The position numbers and the translations under genes were made by a program. Of a DNA stretch of 61,622 bases, positions 11,622 to 60,119 are shown one piece after another. Every line of letters starts with the position of its first letter. Position 1 is the stretch's first letter. This stretch comes from Chloroflexota bacterium (GTDB taxonomy: Bacteria > Chloroflexota > UBA11872), in the NCBI GenBank assembly GCA_026707285.1, contig JAPOXD010000015.1, positions 1-61,622 of the forward strand. The letters run 5' to 3'. The notes beneath the pieces were generated by a model, which was not told the origin of the DNA, did not search any database, and was given only the letters and a program-made list of their open reading frames with translations.

Positions 11622-11734
11622 CCGGTGTCGAGCACGTATTGGTCACGGACCGAGTCATAGTCCCGGAACACGCCGGCCGCCCAAGACACCGCCGCGCGGC
11701 GTGTTTCCGCCCTAGGCCGCAGCGAAACCGCCGG

Positions 11735-11827
11735 CGGAGGAGGTGGGATTCGAACCCACGACCGAGGGGAGCACCCCCGGTAACCGCTTAGCAGGCGGCC
11801 GCACTAGACCAACTATGCGACTCCTCC
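11735..11827 (-). tRNA. tRNA-Ser (anticodon GCT)
   Basis: On the minus strand the 7-bp acceptor GGAGGAG pairs with CTCCTCC. The anticodon loop reads GCT within CCGCCTGCTAAGCGG, a long variable arm (about 20 nt) follows, and GGTTCGAATCC forms the T loop. The discriminator is G and the 3' CCA is not encoded. The 93-nt length and long arm are class II, as expected for serine. Confidence 0.95.
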
Positions 11828-11858
11828 AAGTTCGGACCGGACCGGATCGGGCGTCGGG

Positions 11859-11946
11859 CGGAGGGGGTGGGATTCGAACCCACGAGGCGGGCAAGCCGCC
11901 TAGTGGTTTTCAAGACCACCTCCTTAAGCCACTCGGACACCCCTCC
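11859..11946 (-). tRNA. tRNA-Ser (anticodon TGA)
   Basis: Acceptor GGAGGGG pairs with CCCCTCC. The anticodon stem-loop GTGGTCTTGAAAACCAC gives TGA, a long variable arm (GGCGGCTTGCCCGCC) follows, and the T loop is GGTTCGAATCC. It is an 88-nt class II tRNA with G discriminator and no encoded CCA. It lies upstream of the tRNA-Ser(GCT) gene on the same strand, 31 bp apart, probably in one transcript. Confidence 0.95.
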
Positions 11947-11957
11947 AGCTTTACTGA

Positions 11958-49016: not shown

Positions 49017-49560
49017 CAAGACCGCCAATTCACCGCCCGCCGAGGGCGAGGCCGCCGCGGCCGAGGCGAAAGCCGACGAGTCCGCCGACGAGTCCGCCGA
49101 CAAGGCCAACGGCAAGTTGCCGTCGCACCTCACGCACCATCGCCGCATCGCCCGCAACCTCAACGGTCTGCTCGAAAACTACGGCGAGTTGCGGCGCCAG
49201 GTCGTCCAGATCGAGCGCACCTACAAGCGCGGCGACAAGGATCTCGACGCCCGCATCTTTCAGCTCACCACGCGGCTCGACGCGCTGGAGAAGAAGCTGA
49301 ACGACTTCGACCAAGAGATGATCGGCGTCACCTTTGAATCGAATTTGAAAATCCGCGGCAACAGCGACGCCATCGAAGCCCTCTGGGACGCGCTGGAGTC
49401 CGGCGGCGGCCCGAAGGCCGTCGCCCGGCGGCGGCGCGAGGCCGCGGAACGCGAAGAGGCGCGTCAGGAAGGCATCGAAAAGCAGCTCCAGGAAATGCTC
49501 GACCAGAAACGCCAAACCAAGCCGACGACCCGACGACGAAAGGTCACGAAAGCAACATGA
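48976..49560 (+). CDS. Coiled-coil hypothetical protein
   Basis: A 194-residue protein without recognised domain. The N-terminus is basic then Ala/Glu/Ser-rich with a near-repeat DESADESADKA. The middle (about residues 55-115) is a long helix suited to a coiled coil (NGLLENYGELRRQVVQIERT and RIFQLTTRLDALEKKLNDFD). The C-terminus is Arg/Lys/Gln-rich. It overlaps the cobW-like gene by 41 bp and the NYN gene by ATGA, so it belongs to the same operon. A scaffold for the NYN protein is a possible role. Confidence 0.7.
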   Translation: MATRTSRARRSRSSKTANSPPAEGEAAAAEAKADESADESADKANGKLPSHLTHHRRIARNLNGLLENYGELRRQVVQIERTYKRGDKDLDARIFQLTTRLDALEKKLNDFDQEMIGVTFESNLKIRGNSDAIEALWDALESGGGPKAVARRRREAAEREEARQEGIEKQLQEMLDQKRQTKPTTRRRKVTKAT

Positions 49561-50315
49561 AACGACTGTCACCCATCCCTGAAGACTTCGCGCCCGATCC
49601 CGATTCCGCGGGCAACCCGGAAGACGACTTGCGCTCCCTGATGGACGAGCTCAAGGACGCCGTGTCGGCGCCGCGTGCCGCCGAGCGCGACCTGGCCGCC
49701 GCGGCCAGGGCCCTGTCCCGGGCCGCTGGCGCACTACACACCACATCCAACGGCGCATCGGACTACGGCCCCAAGCTGCGCCTGGGCGTGTTTCTGGACA
49801 CGGCCAACCTGACGGATCGGGGCTCGGACGATCCCATTCGCGTGGACTTCGCCAAGCTCCTGGCCCACGTCAGCGACGGCCGGCGAACCGTCCACGCCCG
49901 CGCCTATTGCCCCATCTACGCCGACTTCAACGGGCGGCTCGAGCATCAGCGCTCGGTCGCGCCCGTCTGGGACATGGGCTACGACATCGTCACCAAGCCC
50001 ATCAAGGTGTTTGCCGACGGCACCCGCAAGGCCGACCTCGACCTGGTCCTGGTCGTCGACGTGATCCGCCGCTTGCCGACCATGGACGTCGTGGCGCTCA
50101 TGTCCGGCGACGGTGACTACGTGCCGATGGTCGAATATCTGCGCGAGCACGGCGTGCGCGTCGAGGTGTATTCGTTCGCCGATGCCATTGCCGAAGAGCT
50201 GCGCCTGGCGGCCAATGCCTGGCACGACATCAGCTCCCTGACCTCGGTGCACGTGGGCGCCCCGGCCCCCAAGCGGAGCCGCAGCCGCGCCGGCGCGGCG
50301 GCCTCCAGCGCCTGA
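49557..50315 (+). CDS. NYN-domain protein (LabA/DUF88-like putative RNase)
   Basis: A 252-residue protein. After an acidic N-terminal 70 residues, the NYN (PIN-like) domain runs from LRLGVFLDTANLTDRG to about residue 225. Candidate metal-binding acids are Asp in FLDTANL, Asp in KADLDLVLVVD, and the SGDGDYVPMVEYL pair. LabA-like proteins are proposed RNases or regulators. A basic tail follows. Overlaps the coiled-coil gene by ATGA. A second, diverged NYN gene lies two genes downstream. Confidence 0.85.
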   Translation: MKRLSPIPEDFAPDPDSAGNPEDDLRSLMDELKDAVSAPRAAERDLAAAARALSRAAGALHTTSNGASDYGPKLRLGVFLDTANLTDRGSDDPIRVDFAKLLAHVSDGRRTVHARAYCPIYADFNGRLEHQRSVAPVWDMGYDIVTKPIKVFADGTRKADLDLVLVVDVIRRLPTMDVVALMSGDGDYVPMVEYLREHGVRVEVYSFADAIAEELRLAANAWHDISSLTSVHVGAPAPKRSRSRAGAAASSA

Positions 50316-50344
50316 CCGGTCATGACACGCCCACCGGTCCCGAC

Positions 50345-50530
50345 ATGAGCGGCCGCCGCCGGCGCCGACGCCGGTCGCGTCGAGAATCGTCGGGTGCGTG
50401 GCGCCGTCCCTGGCGCCGCATGCGCCGCTGGTTCACCGTGGCCCGCATCTGGGCCGTCATCTCGGTGATCGCCGTGATCCTGCTGGTCGCCTCGCTCATC
50501 ATCACGCCGGGTCTCACCGCTGGGAACTAG
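50345..50530 (+). CDS. Arg-rich single-pass membrane peptide, 61 residues
   Basis: The N-terminal 33 residues carry about 18 arginines (MSGRRRRRRRSRRESS and RRPWRRMRRWFTVARI). They are followed by one hydrophobic helix (WAVISVIAVILLVASLIIT) and only seven residues after it. The positive-inside rule gives N-in/C-out (type II) topology. No homologue is recognised. It lies between the NYN gene and an M50 protease gene, whose frame opens within its last codons. Site-2 proteases cut type II helices with short outer tails, so it is a candidate substrate. The composition could also reflect chance in GC-rich DNA. Confidence 0.5.
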   Translation: MSGRRRRRRRSRRESSGAWRRPWRRMRRWFTVARIWAVISVIAVILLVASLIITPGLTAGN

Positions 50531-51758
50531 CCCACCGTCGCCCCCGGGCGAGGTTTCGCCGCGGCGGAGACGCGGGGCGCGCGCCGGCCGCTCGCGCGGC
50601 TGGACCATCCTCCGCATCGGCGGCACCGCCATCACGCTCGACCCCAGCTGGCTCATCATCTTCGTCATCATCGCCTGGATGACCTCGGAGTCCGTGATTC
50701 CGGTGCGGCTCTTCGAGTCCGCCGCCCAGGCGGGCCTGGCGCCGCCACCCCCGGGATCGCAGGCGAGCTATTGGGCCGGCGGGCTGCTGGCCAGCGTCGT
50801 CTTCTTCGGCTCCATCGTGGCCCACGAGGCGGCCCACGCCCTGATGGCCGTGCGCCGCGGCATCGCCGTGCCCCGCATCCGGCTCTTCGTGTTCGGCGGC
50901 GTCGCCGAGATCTCCCAGGAGCCCCGCGCCGCCGGCCAGGAGTTCGCCATCGCCATCGTCGGCCCGCTCACCAGCGCCGCCATCGGCGGCGTGTTCCTGG
51001 CCCTGGCCCAGGTGCTGCCGCCGGCCACCGTGCCGCGTGTGACGGCGCAGTGGCTCGGCGAGATCAACCTCTTTCTGGCCGCCTTCAACCTGCTGCCGGG
51101 CTTTCCGCTGGACGGCGGACGCGTGCTGCGGGCAATCGTTTGGGGCATCACGCAGAACGTGCACACGGCCACGCGCGTCGCCAGCCTCGCCGGTGCCGGT
51201 TTCGGCATCCTGCTCATCCTGTTCGGCGTCGTGCAGTTCATCGCCTTCCGCGGCCTCGGCGTGCAGGCGCTGTGGGCCGCCTTTATCGGCTGGTTTCTGT
51301 GGTCGGCCGCGCGCTCGGCGCTGCGCGAGGGCGATATCCGACGACGGCTCAGCTCCATGGTGGTGCGCGACGTCACGCGGGCCTTCACCCAAGCGCCGTT
51401 CCCCCACGACGCGGTCATCGCCGAGGTTGAGTCACGCATCAGCGCCGAGAACAGTCCCCCGGTCTGGCCCGTGGCCGACGCCGCCGGCGACGTCTACGCC
51501 ATGGTCGCCACGCGCGACATCGCCGCCGTGCCCCCCTTCCTGCGGGAGACCACGCGCGTGGGCGATGTCGCGCGGGAGATCGACCCCGCCGACGTACTGG
51601 AGCCGGACACCCCGCTCGACGGCGTGCTCCAGGACGCCCAGCGTCGCCAGCGCGGCTACTACGTGGTCAACGCCGGGGGCCGGGTCGCCGGATGGGTGTA
51701 CGTCGGCGACCTGCTCCGCGCCGGACGACCGCGCCGCGCCGGACGCCGGGGGACCTAG
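50520..51758 (+). CDS. Site-2-protease family M50 metalloprotease with CBS domains (Rip3-like)
   Basis: An intramembrane zinc protease. The active-site motifs are HEAAHAL (HExxH) and NLLPGFPLDGGRVLRA (third ligand Asp). The C-terminal 120 residues resemble two CBS domains, as in Rip3/S2P of mycobacteria and cyanobacteria. The first transmembrane segment (TLDPSWLIIFVIIAWM) lies upstream of ATG 50679, and the preceding WTILRIGG is also family-like. Yet no ATG, GTG or TTG precedes it in frame. CTG 50520 overlaps the stop of the peptide gene and is the best candidate; the start is therefore uncertain. The N-terminal 25 residues are Pro/Arg-rich. Confidence 0.84.
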   Translation: MGTSPPSPPGEVSPRRRRGARAGRSRGWTILRIGGTAITLDPSWLIIFVIIAWMTSESVIPVRLFESAAQAGLAPPPPGSQASYWAGGLLASVVFFGSIVAHEAAHALMAVRRGIAVPRIRLFVFGGVAEISQEPRAAGQEFAIAIVGPLTSAAIGGVFLALAQVLPPATVPRVTAQWLGEINLFLAAFNLLPGFPLDGGRVLRAIVWGITQNVHTATRVASLAGAGFGILLILFGVVQFIAFRGLGVQALWAAFIGWFLWSAARSALREGDIRRRLSSMVVRDVTRAFTQAPFPHDAVIAEVESRISAENSPPVWPVADAAGDVYAMVATRDIAAVPPFLRETTRVGDVAREIDPADVLEPDTPLDGVLQDAQRRQRGYYVVNAGGRVAGWVYVGDLLRAGRPRRAGRRGT

Positions 51759-51788
51759 TCGGCCCGAAGGCCGTCTGCCGCGGTCCAC

Positions 51789-51794
51789 TATCAT
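51789..51794 (+). promoter_or_regulatory. Candidate -10 (TATCAT) before the second NYN gene
   Basis: TATCAT lies 31 nt before GTG 51826, and GGGAG (51818-51822) is inside the leader. Confidence 0.3.
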
Positions 51795-51825
51795 CTAGGC
51801 AGACCTGAATCGGCGCTGGGAGTAC

Positions 51826-52611
51826 GTGGTGGCCGCAGCGAACAAGTCCGCCGTCCTGATTGATCTAGCCTCGTTGCAGGCCCTCGCGGCGAACGGCGGC
51901 GGGACGATCGACTTCCAGCAACTGCGCGACCGGCTCACGGGCGACGCCACCCTGGTGCGCGCCACGGCCTACGGCACCGAGCACGAGGGCGAACCCAGCC
52001 CGCACCTGGACCTCGGCGGCCTGTCACGGTCCGGCTACAAGCTCGTGACCAAGCGGCTGCGGCGCCGCGACGACGGCACGCTCTACGCCAGCGTGCACGT
52101 CGAGATGACCGTCGACGCGCTGGACCTTACGCCCTACATCGACCGCCTCACGCTGGTGACCACCGACCCGGACTTCGTGCCCCTCATCGAAGCGGTGCAG
52201 CGCCGGGGGGTGCGGGTGCAGGTCGTCGCCAGTGGAGCGGGGCGCAGCCAGCCGCTGGCCGCCGCGGCCGACGAGACGCTGGAGCTGGACGACCTGCTGT
52301 CCGACGTGGTGCGCCGCGAACGCCCGCGCCGGGATCGCCGGCGTCCCACGCCGCCGCGCGCCGCCCCCGGTGAAACGGCGCGGGCGCGAGTGCCCGATCG
52401 ACCCGATGAGGAGCCCCGGCCGCGCCGCGCGGCGCCCCCGCCGCCACCTCCGCCGCCCGAGTCGCCTCCCCCGCCTCCACCCACCGCCGCGCCTGAACCC
52501 GCGGCGGCAAAGCCGGCAGCGGACCCTCCCAAGCGACGAGAACGCCTCACCGCTCTGCCCGGCGAGCGGTTGAGCGGGCGAGCGGGGCCTCGACCCGACG
52601 CCCCGGACTAG
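51826..52611 (+). CDS. NYN-domain protein with Pro-rich tail
   Basis: A 261-residue protein. The first 150 residues form a NYN-like fold: AVLIDLASLQALA, VHVEMTVDALDLTPYIDRLT and LVTTDPDFVPLIEAVQRRGV, with the last carrying the DxDF acids. The C-terminal 100 residues are Arg/Pro/Ala-rich with poly-Pro runs, probably disordered. It is more diverged than the NYN gene at 49557; the N-terminal acid is kept. GTG 51826 or GTG 51829 is the start; GGGAG is better spaced for the latter. It may be co-transcribed with the sugar isomerase 12 bp downstream. Confidence 0.78.
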   Translation: MVAAANKSAVLIDLASLQALAANGGGTIDFQQLRDRLTGDATLVRATAYGTEHEGEPSPHLDLGGLSRSGYKLVTKRLRRRDDGTLYASVHVEMTVDALDLTPYIDRLTLVTTDPDFVPLIEAVQRRGVRVQVVASGAGRSQPLAAAADETLELDDLLSDVVRRERPRRDRRRPTPPRAAPGETARARVPDRPDEEPRPRRAAPPPPPPPPESPPPPPPTAAPEPAAAKPAADPPKRRERLTALPGERLSGRAGPRPDAPD

Positions 52612-52623
52612 CCCCGCGGCGCC

Positions 52624-53484
52624 GTGCGCGTAGGCATCGCAGCCACCATGTGGGGTGATGCGCCGTTTCGCACCGTCGCTGAGGAAGCCCGCGACGCCGG
52701 ATATGCCGGGCTCGAAGGCGGCGTGACCGACCTGGTTGGCGACGCCCCGCTCGCTCGCCGCATCGTCTCCGACGACGGGCTGCCGCTCATCGGCGGGCGC
52801 TTCGCGGCCAACTGGTTCGCCCCCGAGTACCACGACGTTGAGCTGGATCAGCTCCGGCGCGTGGCCGAGTTCCTGGCCGACCTCGACGCCTCCTATGTCG
52901 TCGCGGCGGCACACGCGGTGCCCGAACGCTGGGCGGCCGCGGGCCGCGGCGATCCCGCCGAGGAGCTGCAGCCGGACCAGTGGGGCCATCTCGCCGAGTG
53001 CCTCGCGCGCGCCGCCGACATCTGCGCCCAGGAGTTCGAACTCCAGGTTGTCTTTCGCAACCAGCTCGGCTCGCACGTGGAAACCAGCGCGGAGCTCGAT
53101 CGCCTGCTATCGCTCACCGACCCCACGTCGCTGATGCTCGCCGTCGATGTCGGCTACCTGTTCTATCTGGGCTCCGACCCGCGCGCCTTCATCCGCGACC
53201 GCATCGAGCGGGTAGCCTACGTCATCCTCAAAGACGTGGACGCCGATCTCCGCGACCGCCACTTGGCGCTGGGCGGCACGCTGCCCGCCTTCGTCCACCA
53301 GGGCGGCTTCCCGGAGCTTGGCGGCGGCCACGTCGACCTGGAAGGCATCCTGGAGATTCTCGGGAACAGCGACTATGACGGATGGCTCGTGGTGGATCAG
53401 GACCTCACGCTGCGCGATCCCGCCGCGAGCGCCCAAATCAGCCGGGAATGTCTCGTGCACCTGGGGCTCGAGCTCGAATCATGA
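52624..53484 (+). CDS. Sugar phosphate isomerase/epimerase (TIM barrel, IolE-like)
   Basis: A 286-residue AP-endonuclease-2-fold protein. The N-terminus VGIAATMWGDAPFRTVAEEA and YAGLEGG, the middle VFRNQLGSHVETSAELDRLL, LAVDVGYLFYLGSDP and VILKDVD, and the C-terminus DGWLVVDQDL match the fold; these regions supply the metal-binding Glu/Asp/His residues (Glu in GLEGG, His in GSHVE, Asp in AVDVG). The substrate is a sugar or inositol derivative, unknown here. The start is GTG 52624. It ends in an ATGA overlap with the glycosidase-like gene. Confidence 0.82.
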   Translation: MRVGIAATMWGDAPFRTVAEEARDAGYAGLEGGVTDLVGDAPLARRIVSDDGLPLIGGRFAANWFAPEYHDVELDQLRRVAEFLADLDASYVVAAAHAVPERWAAAGRGDPAEELQPDQWGHLAECLARAADICAQEFELQVVFRNQLGSHVETSAELDRLLSLTDPTSLMLAVDVGYLFYLGSDPRAFIRDRIERVAYVILKDVDADLRDRHLALGGTLPAFVHQGGFPELGGGHVDLEGILEILGNSDYDGWLVVDQDLTLRDPAASAQISRECLVHLGLELES

Positions 53485-54638
53485 CGCGCGCGCTTGACCG
53501 CCGTTCGGTCGTGCGCGGCGCCGCCGGCTTGATGGGCGCCGCCCTGCTGGCCGCGTGCGGCGCGGAGCCGGTGCGCCGCACGGCCCCAAGGCCCCTGCCG
53601 CTGGCCAATGTCGAGCCCTGGGGCGCCAACGTCTTCCTGGATAAAGAAAACGAAGCCTGGAAACGCCGCCACAGCCTGGAGCTGTTGCGCGACGCCGGCG
53701 TCCGCTGGATCTTTCAGCGCATCGGCTGGGACGCGGTCGAGTCCGTTGGCCAGGGACTGTTTGTCAATCCCCAGCGGCGCGAGAGCAGTTGGGATCGGTT
53801 CGACGACATTGTCGACCGCGCCCTGGAGCAGGGCATTTCGGTCGTGGCCCGCATCGACCGCTCACCGCCGTGGGCCCGGCCCGGCCGCGACAGTCCCACC
53901 GCGCCGCCCGAGGACCTTGCCGATTTCGAAACCTTCCTGCGCGCCCTCGCCGAGCACTACCAAGACCGCATCCAGCACTACCAGATCTGGCATGAGCCCA
54001 ACCTGGCCGCCAACTGGGGCGGCGCGGCGCCGGATCCCGCGGGCTACGCCGAGCTGCTGCGCGTGGCCCATGACGCCCTGAAGTCGGCCGACGATCGCCT
54101 CGTCGTCGCCGCCGCGCAGCTGGCCCCCACGCTCGAAAACAACCCGCGCGCCATCAGCGACCTTGCCTTTCTGCGGCAGACCTACGACCACGGCGCCGCG
54201 GAGACCCTGGACATCCAGGCGGCGGCGGCCTTTGGCATGCAGTACTCCCCAAACACGCCGGCGGACCCGCGCGTGCTCAACTTCCGCCGCGTCGAGTTGC
54301 TTCGCAATCTCATGGTGGAATACGGCCGCAGCGACGCTCCCGTCTGGCTCAGCGCCTACGGCTGGAACGCCGCACCGCCCGACCTCGAGGCCTCGCAACC
54401 CGTCTGGCGGCGCGTCGAGGAGGCGCAGCAGGCCGCCTGGACCGTCGACGGCGTGCGCTACGGCCTGAGTGAATGGCCCTGGATCGGCGTCTTCGGCATC
54501 TGGTTCTTCCGCCAGTCCTTCGCCGCCCTGGGACCCGACGACGCTTCCTACTACTTCCGCATGGTCGACCCGGACTTCACGCCGCGCCCGGTCTACCGCG
54601 CCGTCCAGGAAGCGGCCACCGGCCACACGGACCTCTAG
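53481..54638 (+). CDS. Glycosidase-like TIM barrel lipoprotein lacking the nucleophile Glu
   Basis: A 385-residue exported protein with a twin-arginine-like DRRSVVRGAAG and a lipobox LLAAC. The barrel resembles clan GH-A hydrolases (GH39/GH5): WIFQRIGWDAVE, VVARIDRSPPWARPG and QIWHEPNLAANWGG, where Glu172 takes the acid/base position (the preceding Asn is His). The strand that should hold the nucleophile reads VWLSAYGWN, with Ala292 where the paralogue at 54664 has Glu. It is probably a binding protein or a pseudoenzyme. Start ATG 53481 overlaps the isomerase stop. Confidence 0.8.
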   Translation: MTRALDRRSVVRGAAGLMGAALLAACGAEPVRRTAPRPLPLANVEPWGANVFLDKENEAWKRRHSLELLRDAGVRWIFQRIGWDAVESVGQGLFVNPQRRESSWDRFDDIVDRALEQGISVVARIDRSPPWARPGRDSPTAPPEDLADFETFLRALAEHYQDRIQHYQIWHEPNLAANWGGAAPDPAGYAELLRVAHDALKSADDRLVVAAAQLAPTLENNPRAISDLAFLRQTYDHGAAETLDIQAAAAFGMQYSPNTPADPRVLNFRRVELLRNLMVEYGRSDAPVWLSAYGWNAAPPDLEASQPVWRRVEEAQQAAWTVDGVRYGLSEWPWIGVFGIWFFRQSFAALGPDDASYYFRMVDPDFTPRPVYRAVQEAATGHTDL

Positions 54639-54663
54639 CGCCGACGCCGATGCCGGGTCACTG

Positions 54664-57600
54664 ATGCGGCGCGCGCGCATGTGGCGAGCCGCCATCGCCG
54701 CCGTCGGCCTCGGGCTGCTCGGCGTGGTTACGGCCGCTCTTCTGGGCTGGGCCATCCTCACCGAGCGCGGCGTGACCTTCGGCCTCGCCGACCTGCCCGA
54801 GCTGCGCCATGCGGACGCGCCGGCAATCGGCGCCAACACCTTCCTGCATCGCGAAGCGGACCCGGCGAAGGTCGAGCGCGAGCTGGAGCTCCTGGCCCGC
54901 GCCGGCATCGGCCTCATCCGGCAGGAGATCCAGTGGGTCGAAATCGAGCCGCACGCCAAGGGTGTTTACATCGACAACCACGGCGAGGACTCCTGGGCCA
55001 AGTTCGACCGCATCGTCGATCTGGCCCAGCGCTTCGACATCGAGGTGCTCGCCCGGCTCGACCGCCCTCCGCCGTGGGCCACGCCCGGCTTCAACCCGCA
55101 AGACCACCCGTCAATCCAGATGCCGCCAGCGGACTTCACCGATTTCGCCGACGTTGCCGCCGCGGTCGCCGCACGCTACCGCGGCAAGGTGACGTACTTC
55201 CAAATCTGGAATGAGCCCAACCTATTCGGCGAGTGGGGCGGTCGGCCGCCGGACCCCGCCGACTACCTCGACATGCTGCGCGAGGTCGGCGCCGCCGTGC
55301 GGGCCGCCAACCCCGACGCCGTCATCGTCCTGGCCGGCCTGGCGCCCACCATCGAAACCGGGCCCGACAACCTCAGCGACCTGCTGTTCCTGGAGCGGCT
55401 CTATCAGCTGGGCGCCAAGGGGTCGTTCGACGTGGCGTCCAGCATGTCCTACGGCCTGTTCACCGGTCCGCGCGATCCGCGCATCGAGGCGCCGCGGACA
55501 AACTTCCCTCGCGCCGTGCTCTGGCGCGAGATCATGGAAGCCCACGGCGACGCCGGCACGCCGATCTGGGCCTCCGAATACGGCTGGATGTCGCTGCCTC
55601 CCGGCTGGCAAGGCGATCAGGGCATCTGGGGCAATCACCCGGCGGCGGACCAGGCGGCCTGGACCGTGGACGGCATCCGGCGGGCGCGTGAGCAGTGGCC
55701 CTGGCTGCCCACCATCACCATCTGGGCCTCGCGCTGGCCACACGACACCCACCCCAACGACCCCACGCCGTTCTTCGGGCTGCTCACCAAGGACTTGCAA
55801 CCGCGTGACCACCTGCTGGCCCTGGAACAGGCGTACGCCGCTGCCCCAAGCGCCGGCATCGGCCTGCATCAGGAAACGCACGCCGCCTTCAGCTTCAATG
55901 GGCCGTGGCCTCGGGTGCCCAGCGATTGGGCGTCGCTCGGATTCCACCGCCAGACCGGGCAGCCCGACGCTCGGCTGGAGCTGCGATTCGAGGGCGACTC
56001 CGTCGGCCTGCTCACTCGGCGCGGCCCCGACATGGGACAGGTGCGCGTGCGCATCGACGGCCACAGCGCCCTCGCCGACGCCCTCCCGCGCAACGCCGCC
56101 GGCGAGGCGATCATGAACCTCTACGCCCCCGAGGTGGAGCGGCTGGCGCGCATTCCCATCGCCCGCGGGCTGGCCCAAGGCCCGCACGTGCTCGAACTGA
56201 CGGTAATGGCCGAGCGCGACCGGCAAGCGTCGGGCGGGCTGGTCATCGTCGACGGCGCGCTGGTGGGGAACTCACGGCCGCTCTGGCCCTACGCCGCCGT
56301 CGCCGTCACCTGGGCGCTGGCGCTGGCCGCGCTGGTCTGGGCGATTGGCGGTCGCGCCACGCGCGTCGCCGCGCGCATGCCACGAATCGAGATCCTGGAC
56401 CGGCGCCTGCCGCTGGGGCTGCACGTCGGCGAGGTGGCCGCCGTTGCCCTGGCCGTGGTGTTCGCCCTGCTGCCCGACGGCACGCCGGCGTCGGCCTGGA
56501 CTTTGGCTCGGCTGGTGCTGGCGGCGGCGCTGGGCGCGCTGGCGCTGGCGCGCCCGCGCCACGTGGCCATTGCCGCCGTCGCCGCAATCCCCTTCGTCGG
56601 CGTGATCGCGCGCACCGGAATCTACGACCGTCCGGTCGGCGAGACGCTCATCGTGATTCTGGTCATCGCCTGGGCCGCGCGCGCGCTGGCGCAGCGCCGG
56701 TGGCCGCCGGTGCGCGGCTGGTGGCTCTGGCTCCCGATCCTCGTCATCGCCGCCGGCGTCGCCACCACGCTCGCCGCGGACTTCCCGCGGGTCGCCTGGC
56801 GCGACCTGCGCACCGTCATCGTCGAGCCGGCGCTGCTGTTTCTTGTCCTGCTCAGCGTGATGCGCGACCGCGCCGACGCGCAGCGGCTCGGCGTGGCGCT
56901 GGTGCTCGGGGCCGTGGTTTCGGCGGTCGTGGCGCTGGCGCTCATCCCAACCGGCGCCGTCGTCACCGACGCCGGACCGCCGCGGCTGCGCGGACTGTTC
57001 GGTTCGCCCAACAATCTCGCGCTCATTCTGGAGCGCGCCCTGCCCGTGACGGTTGGACTGGCGCTCGCCGCCGCGTCACGGCCGCGGGTTCGCACCGCCG
57101 CCTGGGCAGCCGCGGCGCTGGTGCTGGCGGTGCTGGTGCTCACCTTCAGCCGCGGCGCTTGGATCGGCGCGCTGGCCGGCCTCGCGTTCGCCCTCTACCC
57201 CGTGTGGCGCCGCGCTCCGCGCCTTGCCCGCATCGCCGCACCGCTCGTTGCGGTAGGTCTGATAGTGGCGGTCGTCATCACCACCGGCGACCACCTCGCG
57301 CGACTCCTGCGCCCCTCCGACGCCGCCACCGCCGCCCGGCCCCTGCTCTGGGACTCCGCCTGGCGCATGATCGCCGACAACCCCGTCCTGGGCGTCGGCC
57401 CGGACAACTTCCTCTACCACTACCCGGACTACATCCGCCCCGAAGCCTGGGCCGAGCCCAACATCTCGCACGCGCACAACATCGCCCTCGACACCTGGCT
57501 CACGCTGGGCATCCCCGGTCTCGTGATCCTGGTCGGCGTGCTGGCCGCCCACGCCCGCACCTGGCGCGCCGCGCTGCGCCGCAACGCCGGCGACAGCCGG

Positions 57601-57801
57601 GCGCTCGTCTACGGCCTCGGCGGCGCCATGCTGGCGACGCTGGCCCACGGCATCGTGGACAGCAGCCTCTACCTCCCCGAGCTCGCCGCCACCTTCTGGG
57701 TCGTCGTTGCGCTCACCGTCATCCTGGCCGCGCCACGCGCCGTCATTCCGAGCGCAGCGAGGAATCTAGAGCCCTCGTCTCCCACGCCTCAGACCACTTA
57801 G
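54664..57801 (+). CDS. Glycosidase / O-antigen ligase fusion protein
   Basis: A 1045-residue membrane protein. A signal-anchor helix (AAIAAVGLGLLGVVTAALLG) precedes a clan GH-A-like barrel with QIWNEPNLFGEWGG (Glu184, acid/base) and PIWASEYGWMSLPPGW (Glu305, nucleophile). A beta-rich linker (about 420-530) follows. The C-terminal half has about a dozen helices and Wzy_C/O-antigen-ligase motifs: RGLFGSPNNLALIL, FSRGAWIGALAGL and SHAHNIALDTWLTLGIPGL. The barrel would face outward. The last 18 residues (VIPSAARNLEPS) are encoded by an intergenic repeat. It may trim and transfer a surface glycan. ATG 54664 is chosen; ATG 54679 is also possible. Confidence 0.85.
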   Translation: MRRARMWRAAIAAVGLGLLGVVTAALLGWAILTERGVTFGLADLPELRHADAPAIGANTFLHREADPAKVERELELLARAGIGLIRQEIQWVEIEPHAKGVYIDNHGEDSWAKFDRIVDLAQRFDIEVLARLDRPPPWATPGFNPQDHPSIQMPPADFTDFADVAAAVAARYRGKVTYFQIWNEPNLFGEWGGRPPDPADYLDMLREVGAAVRAANPDAVIVLAGLAPTIETGPDNLSDLLFLERLYQLGAKGSFDVASSMSYGLFTGPRDPRIEAPRTNFPRAVLWREIMEAHGDAGTPIWASEYGWMSLPPGWQGDQGIWGNHPAADQAAWTVDGIRRAREQWPWLPTITIWASRWPHDTHPNDPTPFFGLLTKDLQPRDHLLALEQAYAAAPSAGIGLHQETHAAFSFNGPWPRVPSDWASLGFHRQTGQPDARLELRFEGDSVGLLTRRGPDMGQVRVRIDGHSALADALPRNAAGEAIMNLYAPEVERLARIPIARGLAQGPHVLELTVMAERDRQASGGLVIVDGALVGNSRPLWPYAAVAVTWALALAALVWAIGGRATRVAARMPRIEILDRRLPLGLHVGEVAAVALAVVFALLPDGTPASAWTLARLVLAAALGALALARPRHVAIAAVAAIPFVGVIARTGIYDRPVGETLIVILVIAWAARALAQRRWPPVRGWWLWLPILVIAAGVATTLAADFPRVAWRDLRTVIVEPALLFLVLLSVMRDRADAQRLGVALVLGAVVSAVVALALIPTGAVVTDAGPPRLRGLFGSPNNLALILERALPVTVGLALAAASRPRVRTAAWAAAALVLAVLVLTFSRGAWIGALAGLAFALYPVWRRAPRLARIAAPLVAVGLIVAVVITTGDHLARLLRPSDAATAARPLLWDSAWRMIADNPVLGVGPDNFLYHYPDYIRPEAWAEPNISHAHNIALDTWLTLGIPGLVILVGVLAAHARTWRAALRRNAGDSRALVYGLGGAMLATLAHGIVDSSLYLPELAATFWVVVALTVILAAPRAVIPSAARNLEPSSPTPQTT
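57742..57775. repeat. Repeat GTCATTCCGAGCGCAGCGAGG inside the 3' end of the ligase fusion
   Basis: GTCATTCCGAGCGCAGCGAG followed by GAATCTAGAG is the left half of the element complete at 60137-60228. It is read as VIPSAARNLE at the protein C-terminus. Confidence 0.8.
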
Positions 57802-57822: not shown

Positions 57823-58737
57823 TCAGCCCGTGACGGCTGCCTCCCGCTCCTTGCCTCGATACGGCGCAGCGTCAAACCCGACGAACTCCACATCTGCGTA
57901 GTCCGCGAAGCGCCGCGCCATCACCGCCAGGGCCTCGGGGTTGTCGTCGATCAGCACGAACCGCCGGCCCAGCTCCAGGGCCGCCTCGCCCACCGTCCCG
58001 CTGCCGGCGAAGAAGTCCATCACCGTGCCGCCCGGCGGGCACGAGGCCTGGATGATGCGCCGCGCGATGCCCACCGGCTTCTGCGTCGGATAGCCGGTGC
58101 GCTCTTTGCCGTTCGTGGGCACGATGGTGTGCCACCAGGTATCCGTGGGCAGCTTGCCGCGGGCCGCCTTTTCCGGACCGACCAACCCCGGCGCCATGTA
58201 GGGGATCCGCTCCACCTCGTCCGTGTCGAAGTAGTACCGCTCCGGGTCCTTGGCGTAGACAAGGATGTTGTCGTGCTTCGGCGGCCATTTCTTCTTGGTG
58301 CGGCCGCCGTAGTCGTAGGCCCAGATGATCTCGTTGAGAAAGCCCTCGCGCCCGAAGATGCCGTCCAGCAGCACTTTGGCGTAGTGCACCTCGCGGTAGT
58401 CGAGATGCAGATAGAGCGAGCCGGTCGGTGCCAGCACGCGATGCGCCTCTAGCAGCCGCGGCTCGAGAAAGCCCAGGTAGTCGTCGAACGCGTCGTCGAA
58501 GGCTCGCGTCCCGAGCCGCTCGGTGCGGTAACGCTTGCCCTGGAAGCCCGTCCGGTCGCCTTCCGGGTCGCGCACGGTTCGCAGTTGCGTGCGCGACTGG
58601 GCGCGGCCCGTGTTGAACGGCGGATCGACGTAGATCTGGTCGATGCCGCCTGACGGCATGTCCCGCAGGATCGGCAGGTTGTCGCCGAAATACACGCGAT
58701 GACTGGTGTTCGCGCCGCGCGGGGGCCGCATGCTCAC
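57823..58737 (-). CDS. DNA methyltransferase, beta-class adenine-N6 or cytosine-N4, orphan
   Basis: A 304-residue site-specific DNA methyltransferase. Motif IV is IYVDPPFNTG near the N-terminus and motif I is VMDFFAGSGTVGEAALELG near the C-terminus; this order is the beta class (CcrM/YhdJ group). NEIIWAYDYGG and YPTQKPVGIARRII are typical. There is no restriction gene next to it. GTG 58737 overlaps the mnmE stop (GTGA), so it is translated with mnmE; ATG 58731 is the alternative. The recognition site cannot be read from the sequence. Confidence 0.9.
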   Translation of the reverse strand: MSMRPPRGANTSHRVYFGDNLPILRDMPSGGIDQIYVDPPFNTGRAQSRTQLRTVRDPEGDRTGFQGKRYRTERLGTRAFDDAFDDYLGFLEPRLLEAHRVLAPTGSLYLHLDYREVHYAKVLLDGIFGREGFLNEIIWAYDYGGRTKKKWPPKHDNILVYAKDPERYYFDTDEVERIPYMAPGLVGPEKAARGKLPTDTWWHTIVPTNGKERTGYPTQKPVGIARRIIQASCPPGGTVMDFFAGSGTVGEAALELGRRFVLIDDNPEALAVMARRFADYADVEFVGFDAAPYRGKEREAAVTG

Positions 58738-60119
58738 TTGCCGATGCAGAACTTAGCGAAGATGGTATCCAACAGGTCCTCCGTCGCCGATTCGCCGGTG
58801 ACCTCGCCCAGCGCCTGCACCGCGCCGCGCAGGCCGATGGCGATGAAATCCGCGGGCAACCCGCCGGCCACCGCCTCGCGCGCACTTGCCAGCTCCTCCC
58901 GCGCGCGCTCCAGCGCCTGCTTGTGGCGCAGGCTGGCCACCGTTCCGAGGTCGGGATTGGGCGAGCCGTCGCCGATGAGCGTGCGCAACGCCGCGCGCAC
59001 CCCGGCCACGTCGCCGTTGATGGCGCTGGTGCGGCACGCCGGCGCGTCGATGAGCCTGGCGGCCTCATCGGTGCTGATCGCGGGCGGCAGGTCGGTCTTG
59101 TTGACGATCACGATGGCCTGCTTGCCCGCTGCCGCCACCTGCCGCGCCGCGTCACGGTCGGCATCCACGAGGGCGCGGGATCCGTCCAGCACCAGGGCCG
59201 CCACGTCCGCGGCGGCCAGCGCCGCCCCGCTCCGGTCCACGCCGATGCGCTCCACCGGATCGTCGGTCGGTCGCAAGCCTGCCGTGTCGCTGAGCCGCAC
59301 CGGAATGCCGTCCAGGTTGAAGGACTCCTCCACCACATCGCGCGTGGTGCCCGGGACCTCCGTCACGATGGCGCGCTCCGTGGCGAGCAGCGCGTTCATC
59401 AGCGACGACTTGCCCACATTCGGGCTGCCGACGAGCACCACGCGGAACCCGTGCCGCTGCAGCAGGCCGCGATCGGCGCCGGCCAGGATCTCCTCCAGCG
59501 TCCCGTCGATTCGCTCGAGCGTGCGCCGCATGTCGTCGCGCGGGACTGCCGGCACGTCCTCTTCGGCAAAGTCGATCTCGGCTTCCAACCGCGCCATCAG
59601 GTCCAGACAGGCCCGCCGCAACTCCTGCACGGAGCTGGAAAGGCGACCGCCGAGCTGATCCGCCGCGGCGGCCAGCGCCTCGGCAGTCGGCGCCGCCACC
59701 AGGTCGGCCACGGCCTCCGCTTGCGCCAGGTCCAGGCGACCGTTCAGAAACGCCCGCAGGGTGAACTCGCCCGGATCGGCGGGACGGGCCCCGGCCCGGA
59801 CCACGGCGTCGAGCACGCGGGTCGTCACCAGCACCCCGCCGTGGCCTTGAAGCTCGATCACGTCCTCGCCGGTATAAGAGTTCGGCCCCGGCATGAAGAG
59901 CAGCAAGCCGTCGTCGATCACCGCGTGCGGTGGGGCCGGATCGATCACGTCCACGCGATGCGCATAGCGCGGGCGCGGACGCTCAATCCTTTTGCGAAAC
60001 CGCACGACCCGCTCGGCCACCTCGCGGGCCCCCGGTCCGCTGGCGCGCACGACGCCGATGCCGCCCGGCCCCGGCGCCGTGGCAATGGCGGCAATGGTGT
60101 CGGTCAGCGCGCGAGTCAC
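58734..60119 (-). CDS. mnmE: tRNA uridine-5-carboxymethylaminomethyl modification GTPase MnmE
   Basis: A 461-residue GTPase that works with MnmG on the wobble uridine. N-terminal tetrahydrofolate-binding domain (IGVVRASGPGAREVAERVV), a helical domain split by the G domain: GSPNVGKSSLMNALL (G1), TTRD (G2), DTAGLR (G3), NKTD (G4). The C-terminal FCIGK carries the conserved Cys. Length is normal. It is co-transcribed with the methyltransferase gene. Confidence 0.94.
   Translation of the reverse strand: MTRALTDTIAAIATAPGPGGIGVVRASGPGAREVAERVVRFRKRIERPRPRYAHRVDVIDPAPPHAVIDDGLLLFMPGPNSYTGEDVIELQGHGGVLVTTRVLDAVVRAGARPADPGEFTLRAFLNGRLDLAQAEAVADLVAAPTAEALAAAADQLGGRLSSSVQELRRACLDLMARLEAEIDFAEEDVPAVPRDDMRRTLERIDGTLEEILAGADRGLLQRHGFRVVLVGSPNVGKSSLMNALLATERAIVTEVPGTTRDVVEESFNLDGIPVRLSDTAGLRPTDDPVERIGVDRSGAALAAADVAALVLDGSRALVDADRDAARQVAAAGKQAIVIVNKTDLPPAISTDEAARLIDAPACRTSAINGDVAGVRAALRTLIGDGSPNPDLGTVASLRHKQALERAREELASAREAVAGGLPADFIAIGLRGAVQALGEVTGESATEDLLDTIFAKFCIGK

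Follow-up and report, generated by a model that had tools for sequence, protein, structure and literature searches.

A conserved small membrane protein, predicted to be type II, and its variable gene neighbors in uncultured Chloroflexota

The DNA analyzed here (hereafter the window) is a single contig of 61,622 nt from the 3.2-Mb genome of an uncultured member of the Chloroflexota, and its named relatives are Chloroflexi/Chloroflexota MAGs. On the + strand, polA and the genes for a CobW-type GTPase, a coiled-coil protein, a first NYN protein (NYN1), a 61-aa open reading frame (ORF), a site-2 protease (S2P), a second NYN protein (NYN2), and an IolE-like TIM barrel are followed by glycosyl-hydrolase/O-antigen-ligase genes (Table 1). 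Intergenic spacing is short or negative from cobW to the S2P gene, and 67 nt precede NYN2. Two NYN genes around an Arg-rich peptide and an S2P homolog, the set from which the original prediction drew a module of intramembrane proteolysis and RNA regulation, are present as claimed, and both NYN proteins match PF01936 (E ~1e-22). Elsewhere in the window, two neighboring tRNA-Ser genes (GCT and TGA anticodons; 11733–11947) and an N6/N4 DNA methylase gene beside mnmE (57823–58752) lie on the − strand; the methylase gene was absent from those g2 contigs that were examined. No plasmid copies were found, PADLOC returned only generic LabA/NYN matches, and no paper was found that combined NYN proteins with a site-2 protease.

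Table 1 Features of the locus, in window coordinates
Feature	Position	Strand	Remarks
Coiled-coil protein, 194 aa	48976–49560	+	4-nt overlap with NYN1; tied to NYN1 and polA in the sister family too
NYN1, NYN/LabA-like, 252 aa	49557–50315	+	Every NYN active-site residue present (DxxN, KxDxD, SGDGD)
Small Arg-rich single-pass membrane protein, 61 aa	50345–50530	+	Predicted N-in/C-out; order-wide conservation
S2P (M50) with C-terminal CBS region	50520–51758	+	412 aa from CTG 50520 (start inferred)
Promoter-like element GTCCACTATCAT	51783–51794	+	Conserved, ahead of NYN2; accompanies NYN2 also where unlinked (G006)
NYN2, NYN-fold, 260 aa	51829–52611	+	GTG start; substitutions at the active-site Asp (2QIP D92) and at the N of DxxN
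IolE-like TIM-barrel sugar isomerase/epimerase	52624–53484	+	Immediately 3' of the peptide gene in G019
Glycoside-hydrolase-like protein	53493–54638	+	Lipoprotein/Tat-like start; sister-family homolog matches PF00150
Glycosyl hydrolase (PF00150) + O-antigen ligase (PF04932) fusion	54661–57801	+	Domain matches

Gene order in this part of the window is conserved above background: synteny with the g2 contigs examined covered a block from ~44.3 to 57.8 kb, against almost none over the first 44 kb. The coil-NYN1-peptide-S2P row was kept in 19/19 genomes of the window's family, with NYN2 next in 18/19, and the conserved block also takes in polA and others beyond the four genes singled out by the original prediction. 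These 19 S2P-bearing genomes form one clade in a PolA tree, in which the long branch of one sister-family genome (G019) makes its placement uncertain. Peptide and S2P genes were never separated within the family, their stop and start codons overlapping or nearly so. In the rearranged genome G006, the peptide, S2P, and NYN1 genes were still together, while polA and NYN2 had moved away and NYN2-TIM lay ~1.09 Mb from peptide-S2P. Two genomes (G002 and G004; loci L007 and L010) carry a tandem second S2P, ~44% identical, between S2P and NYN2 and without a peptide of its own.

The 61-aa ORF is a genuine gene, since each of the 19 family genomes has a homolog upstream of S2P, its pN/pS is low, and a scan for its architecture hit nothing else. 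Purifying selection on this frame, which the original prediction had named as a test, was evident in each of two genera (pN/pS 0.21–0.22) and was stronger in the helix half (0.08–0.14). The architecture scan, which covered both strands of 20 neighbor loci of ~20 kb each (~0.8 Mb of strand), asked for short ORFs in which a basic N-side is combined with a single strong helix and a short tail; all four hits were copies of the peptide. The product has a net charge of +15, followed by one strong helix (residues 35–53, mean hydropathy 3.06) and an 8-residue tail, so that hydropathy and charge bear out the proposed Arg-rich, N-in, single-helix form with a short outer tail (predicted type II). The sequence of the Arg-rich half is variable, with its strong basicity retained. 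An equivalent was found in 23/24 genomes of the uncultured Chloroflexota order, G021 being the sole genome without one. The G019 homolog, which is short and divergent, was missed by a first profile search; a profile built without it recovered it from 8,058 ORFs at an E-value of 5.6e-7, with nothing unrelated below 0.05. Outside the order, the weak matches (E above 1e-4) that were inspected proved to be fragments of longer unrelated proteins, and no peptide-like ORF was seen next to ten more distant NYN2 relatives.

The M50 motifs of the S2P are intact in 19/19 genomes (HEAAH or HEVAH, and PLDG; HEAAH and PLDG in the window protein). As for the CBS domains of the proposed M50-CBS protease, all 16 members scanned matched M50 and CBS (PF00571 at E ≤ 0.01), but the window protein's own CBS match, at 20.4 bits, falls under the Pfam cut-off of 24. 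In its frame no ATG, GTG, or TTG precedes the first transmembrane segment (TM1), and a start at the likely CTG makes the gene overlap that of the peptide by 11 nt. The same holds more widely: in 17/19 family genomes no consistent ATG, GTG, or TTG was found between the preceding stop and TM1, and a CTG stands at the peptide stop in 17/17, 7–8 nt past GGAGG in the g2 copies; near this site G006 has GTG and G016 has TTG. The CTG is the simplest start on these grounds, and the S2P most likely initiates there (50520 in the window), making this a lineage-wide candidate for CTG initiation in which ordinary gene callers would set the wrong start. A frameshift fusion of peptide and S2P was ruled out, as the two frames are offset by +1 in part of the species and by 0 in the rest.

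The two NYN proteins, both put forward as putative RNases, differ at the active site, which in VPA0982 (PDB 2QIP) comprises D14, D92, and D115 (PMC11346440). NYN1 has the aspartate in 11/11 sequences at each position and thus bears out the assignment as regards NYN/LabA-type residues. NYN2 has G, H, or A at the D92 position in 15/15, with D14 kept in 15/15 and D115 in 14/15, and the N of DxxN is replaced by S or A. It is therefore probably impaired and not an obvious RNase, judging from these residues; some activity is possible, because an acidic residue two positions past the D92 site is kept. Its fold is nevertheless that of a NYN domain: besides the PF01936 match, the AlphaFold model matches both VPA0982 (E 1.5e-11; TM 0.83 by target to 2QIP) and the MARF1 NYN. 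A conserved LxxExLSG motif at the NYN2 C-terminus (52535–52580) ends a disordered Pro/Ala-rich linker and is kept in both families.

Ahead of NYN2, the exact pattern GTC[CA]A[CT]TATCAT was present in 18/19 family genomes, G006 included; in the nineteenth (G009), TATCAT occurs in the locus and the full pattern is absent. TATCAT occurs once in the window. A sigma-70 scan gave no site and left this element unreported. The element looks like a promoter, and NYN2 is probably its own transcription unit.

Conserved co-occurrence of these neighbors, expected by the original prediction, was found within the family, but the set breaks up in the sister family. Two genomes there (G020 and G023) have the order peptide, Na/Ca exchanger (PF01699), NYN2, TIM, GH, and G022 has peptide, NYN2, TIM, GH. 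In G019, the peptide gene lies between a gene whose translated sequence suggests an NhaA-like protein and the sugar-isomerase (TIM) gene, and no NYN-domain match was found anywhere in that genome, so NYN2 was dropped as a constant partner of the peptide. G021 has neither the peptide nor a clear TIM ortholog. At loci L095, L151, and L169, transporters are found either between the peptide gene and TIM/NYN2 or just upstream. An adjacent S2P-CBS was absent from 4/4 peptide loci (G019, G020, G022, and G023), and the S2P query gave no match in G019, G020, G021, or G023; in G022 it found a single divergent copy at another site in the genome. The neighbors of NYN1 in this family are polA and the coiled-coil gene, at a locus separate from that of the peptide. 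Outside the order, no NYN gene was seen beside an S2P match when contig coordinates were compared by eye in genomes having both gene types.

This variability bears on whether the ORF might be a mere leader coupling translation to the downstream gene. The stop/start overlap and the CTG start of the S2P would suit such a role, which we nonetheless regard as extremely improbable: the helix is constrained at the amino-acid level, the ORF precedes different genes, and in G020 the coupling is loose, with a gap of ~70 nt to the listed exchanger start.

A relation to the adjacent S2P can be envisaged in two ways. The peptide could be its substrate, either destroyed or cut to release the tail, the few outer residues making a site-1 cut unnecessary. 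The two genes are adjacent and coupled in 19/19 genomes, the S2P motifs are intact, and E. coli RseP cleaves small membrane proteins, HokB among them, including small type II proteins with short outer tails (PMC10470546). The peptide resembles these RseP substrates in being small and single-pass, with a predicted N-in/C-out topology and a short outer tail; the likeness lies in predicted architecture, and the window S2P belongs to a different subgroup (CBS, no PDZ). We consider this role rather unlikely, as the peptide is retained in the four sister-family genomes in which the S2P clade is absent or is elsewhere and divergent, the tandem second S2P has no peptide to cut, and RseP-type M50 genes in sister-family genomes would make an adjacent S2P dispensable. 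Alternatively, the peptide might act as helper or inhibitor of the protease, as in BofA/SpoIVFB, where the BofA transmembrane segment fills the SpoIVFB active-site cleft (PMC9042235). The window S2P shares with SpoIVFB (S2P group III, CBS) the HEXXH and PxDG motifs, a C-terminal CBS region, and an adjacent small membrane protein, and coupling is tight in the family. However, the peptide is not bound to the S2P order-wide, the linkage being lost in the sister family, no BofA similarity was seen in Pfam/NCBIfam, and no pro-sigma substrate was identified for the window S2P; such a role appears very unlikely.

The peptide could instead serve as a membrane anchor that tethers NYN2 as an RNA-binding protein. 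Peptide and NYN2 are both present in 22 genomes, with their genes next to each other in G022, and NYN2 has its conserved C-terminal motif at the end of the disordered linker. We give this little credence, given the peptide of G019, the distance between the two genes in G006, and the promoter-like element belonging to NYN2.

The proposed row of NYN, peptide, S2P, and NYN is therefore conserved within one family only, the putative substrate and the protease not being kept together in four sister-family genomes. As the peptide is kept without an adjacent S2P-CBS, and even without any NYN protein, these genes are probably not a dedicated protease-and-RNase switch, and no result backed the idea that the peptide is released to regulate RNA. 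Cleavage by the S2P within the family is possible, with a good precedent in RseP but without a conserved link; we keep this option in view of G006, where rearrangement did not part the peptide gene from those of S2P and NYN1. That the S2P-CBS was recruited in one family to cut a pre-existing polybasic protein, whose freed Arg-rich tail acts on RNA with the intact NYN1, seems highly improbable.

The reading that we prefer, with a probability of about 0.6 as a whole, is that of an envelope-polysaccharide locus whose 5' end carries the gene of a small, conserved membrane protein of type II and into which varied genes have been inserted, with no dedicated S2P/NYN switch. The peptide would be an unannotated, order-specific protein with one helix, N-in, a polybasic cytosolic tail, and few outer residues, heading genes for envelope carbohydrates (an IolE-like TIM barrel, glycosyl hydrolases, and an O-antigen ligase). 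Lineage-specific genes would have been placed between it and these genes: S2P-CBS in the window's family, the Na/Ca exchanger in another genus, and a degenerate NYN in most; NYN1 would derive from a different locus, polA-coil-NYN1. Anchored in the membrane, the peptide may use its cationic tail at the inner face to bind lipid head groups, RNA, or an acidic partner, and in the family the translationally coupled S2P may also turn it over in an RseP-like manner. We count in favor of this reading the order-wide presence of the peptide and the selection on it, its changing contexts in the sister family, the separate polA locus of NYN1 there, the unlinked NYN2 of G006 with its own element, the degraded NYN2 active site, and the fact that the sole genome without the peptide also lacks a clear TIM ortholog; we count against it that S2P and peptide are inseparable in the family, including G006, and that the G019 homolog is short and divergent. 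The gene neighborhood is what points to an envelope-carbohydrate role, which the peptide possibly has.

These results add an unannotated, conserved family of small membrane proteins to the uncultured Chloroflexota, and the way in which its neighbors differ between lineages is a warning against inferring function from the gene order of one genome.
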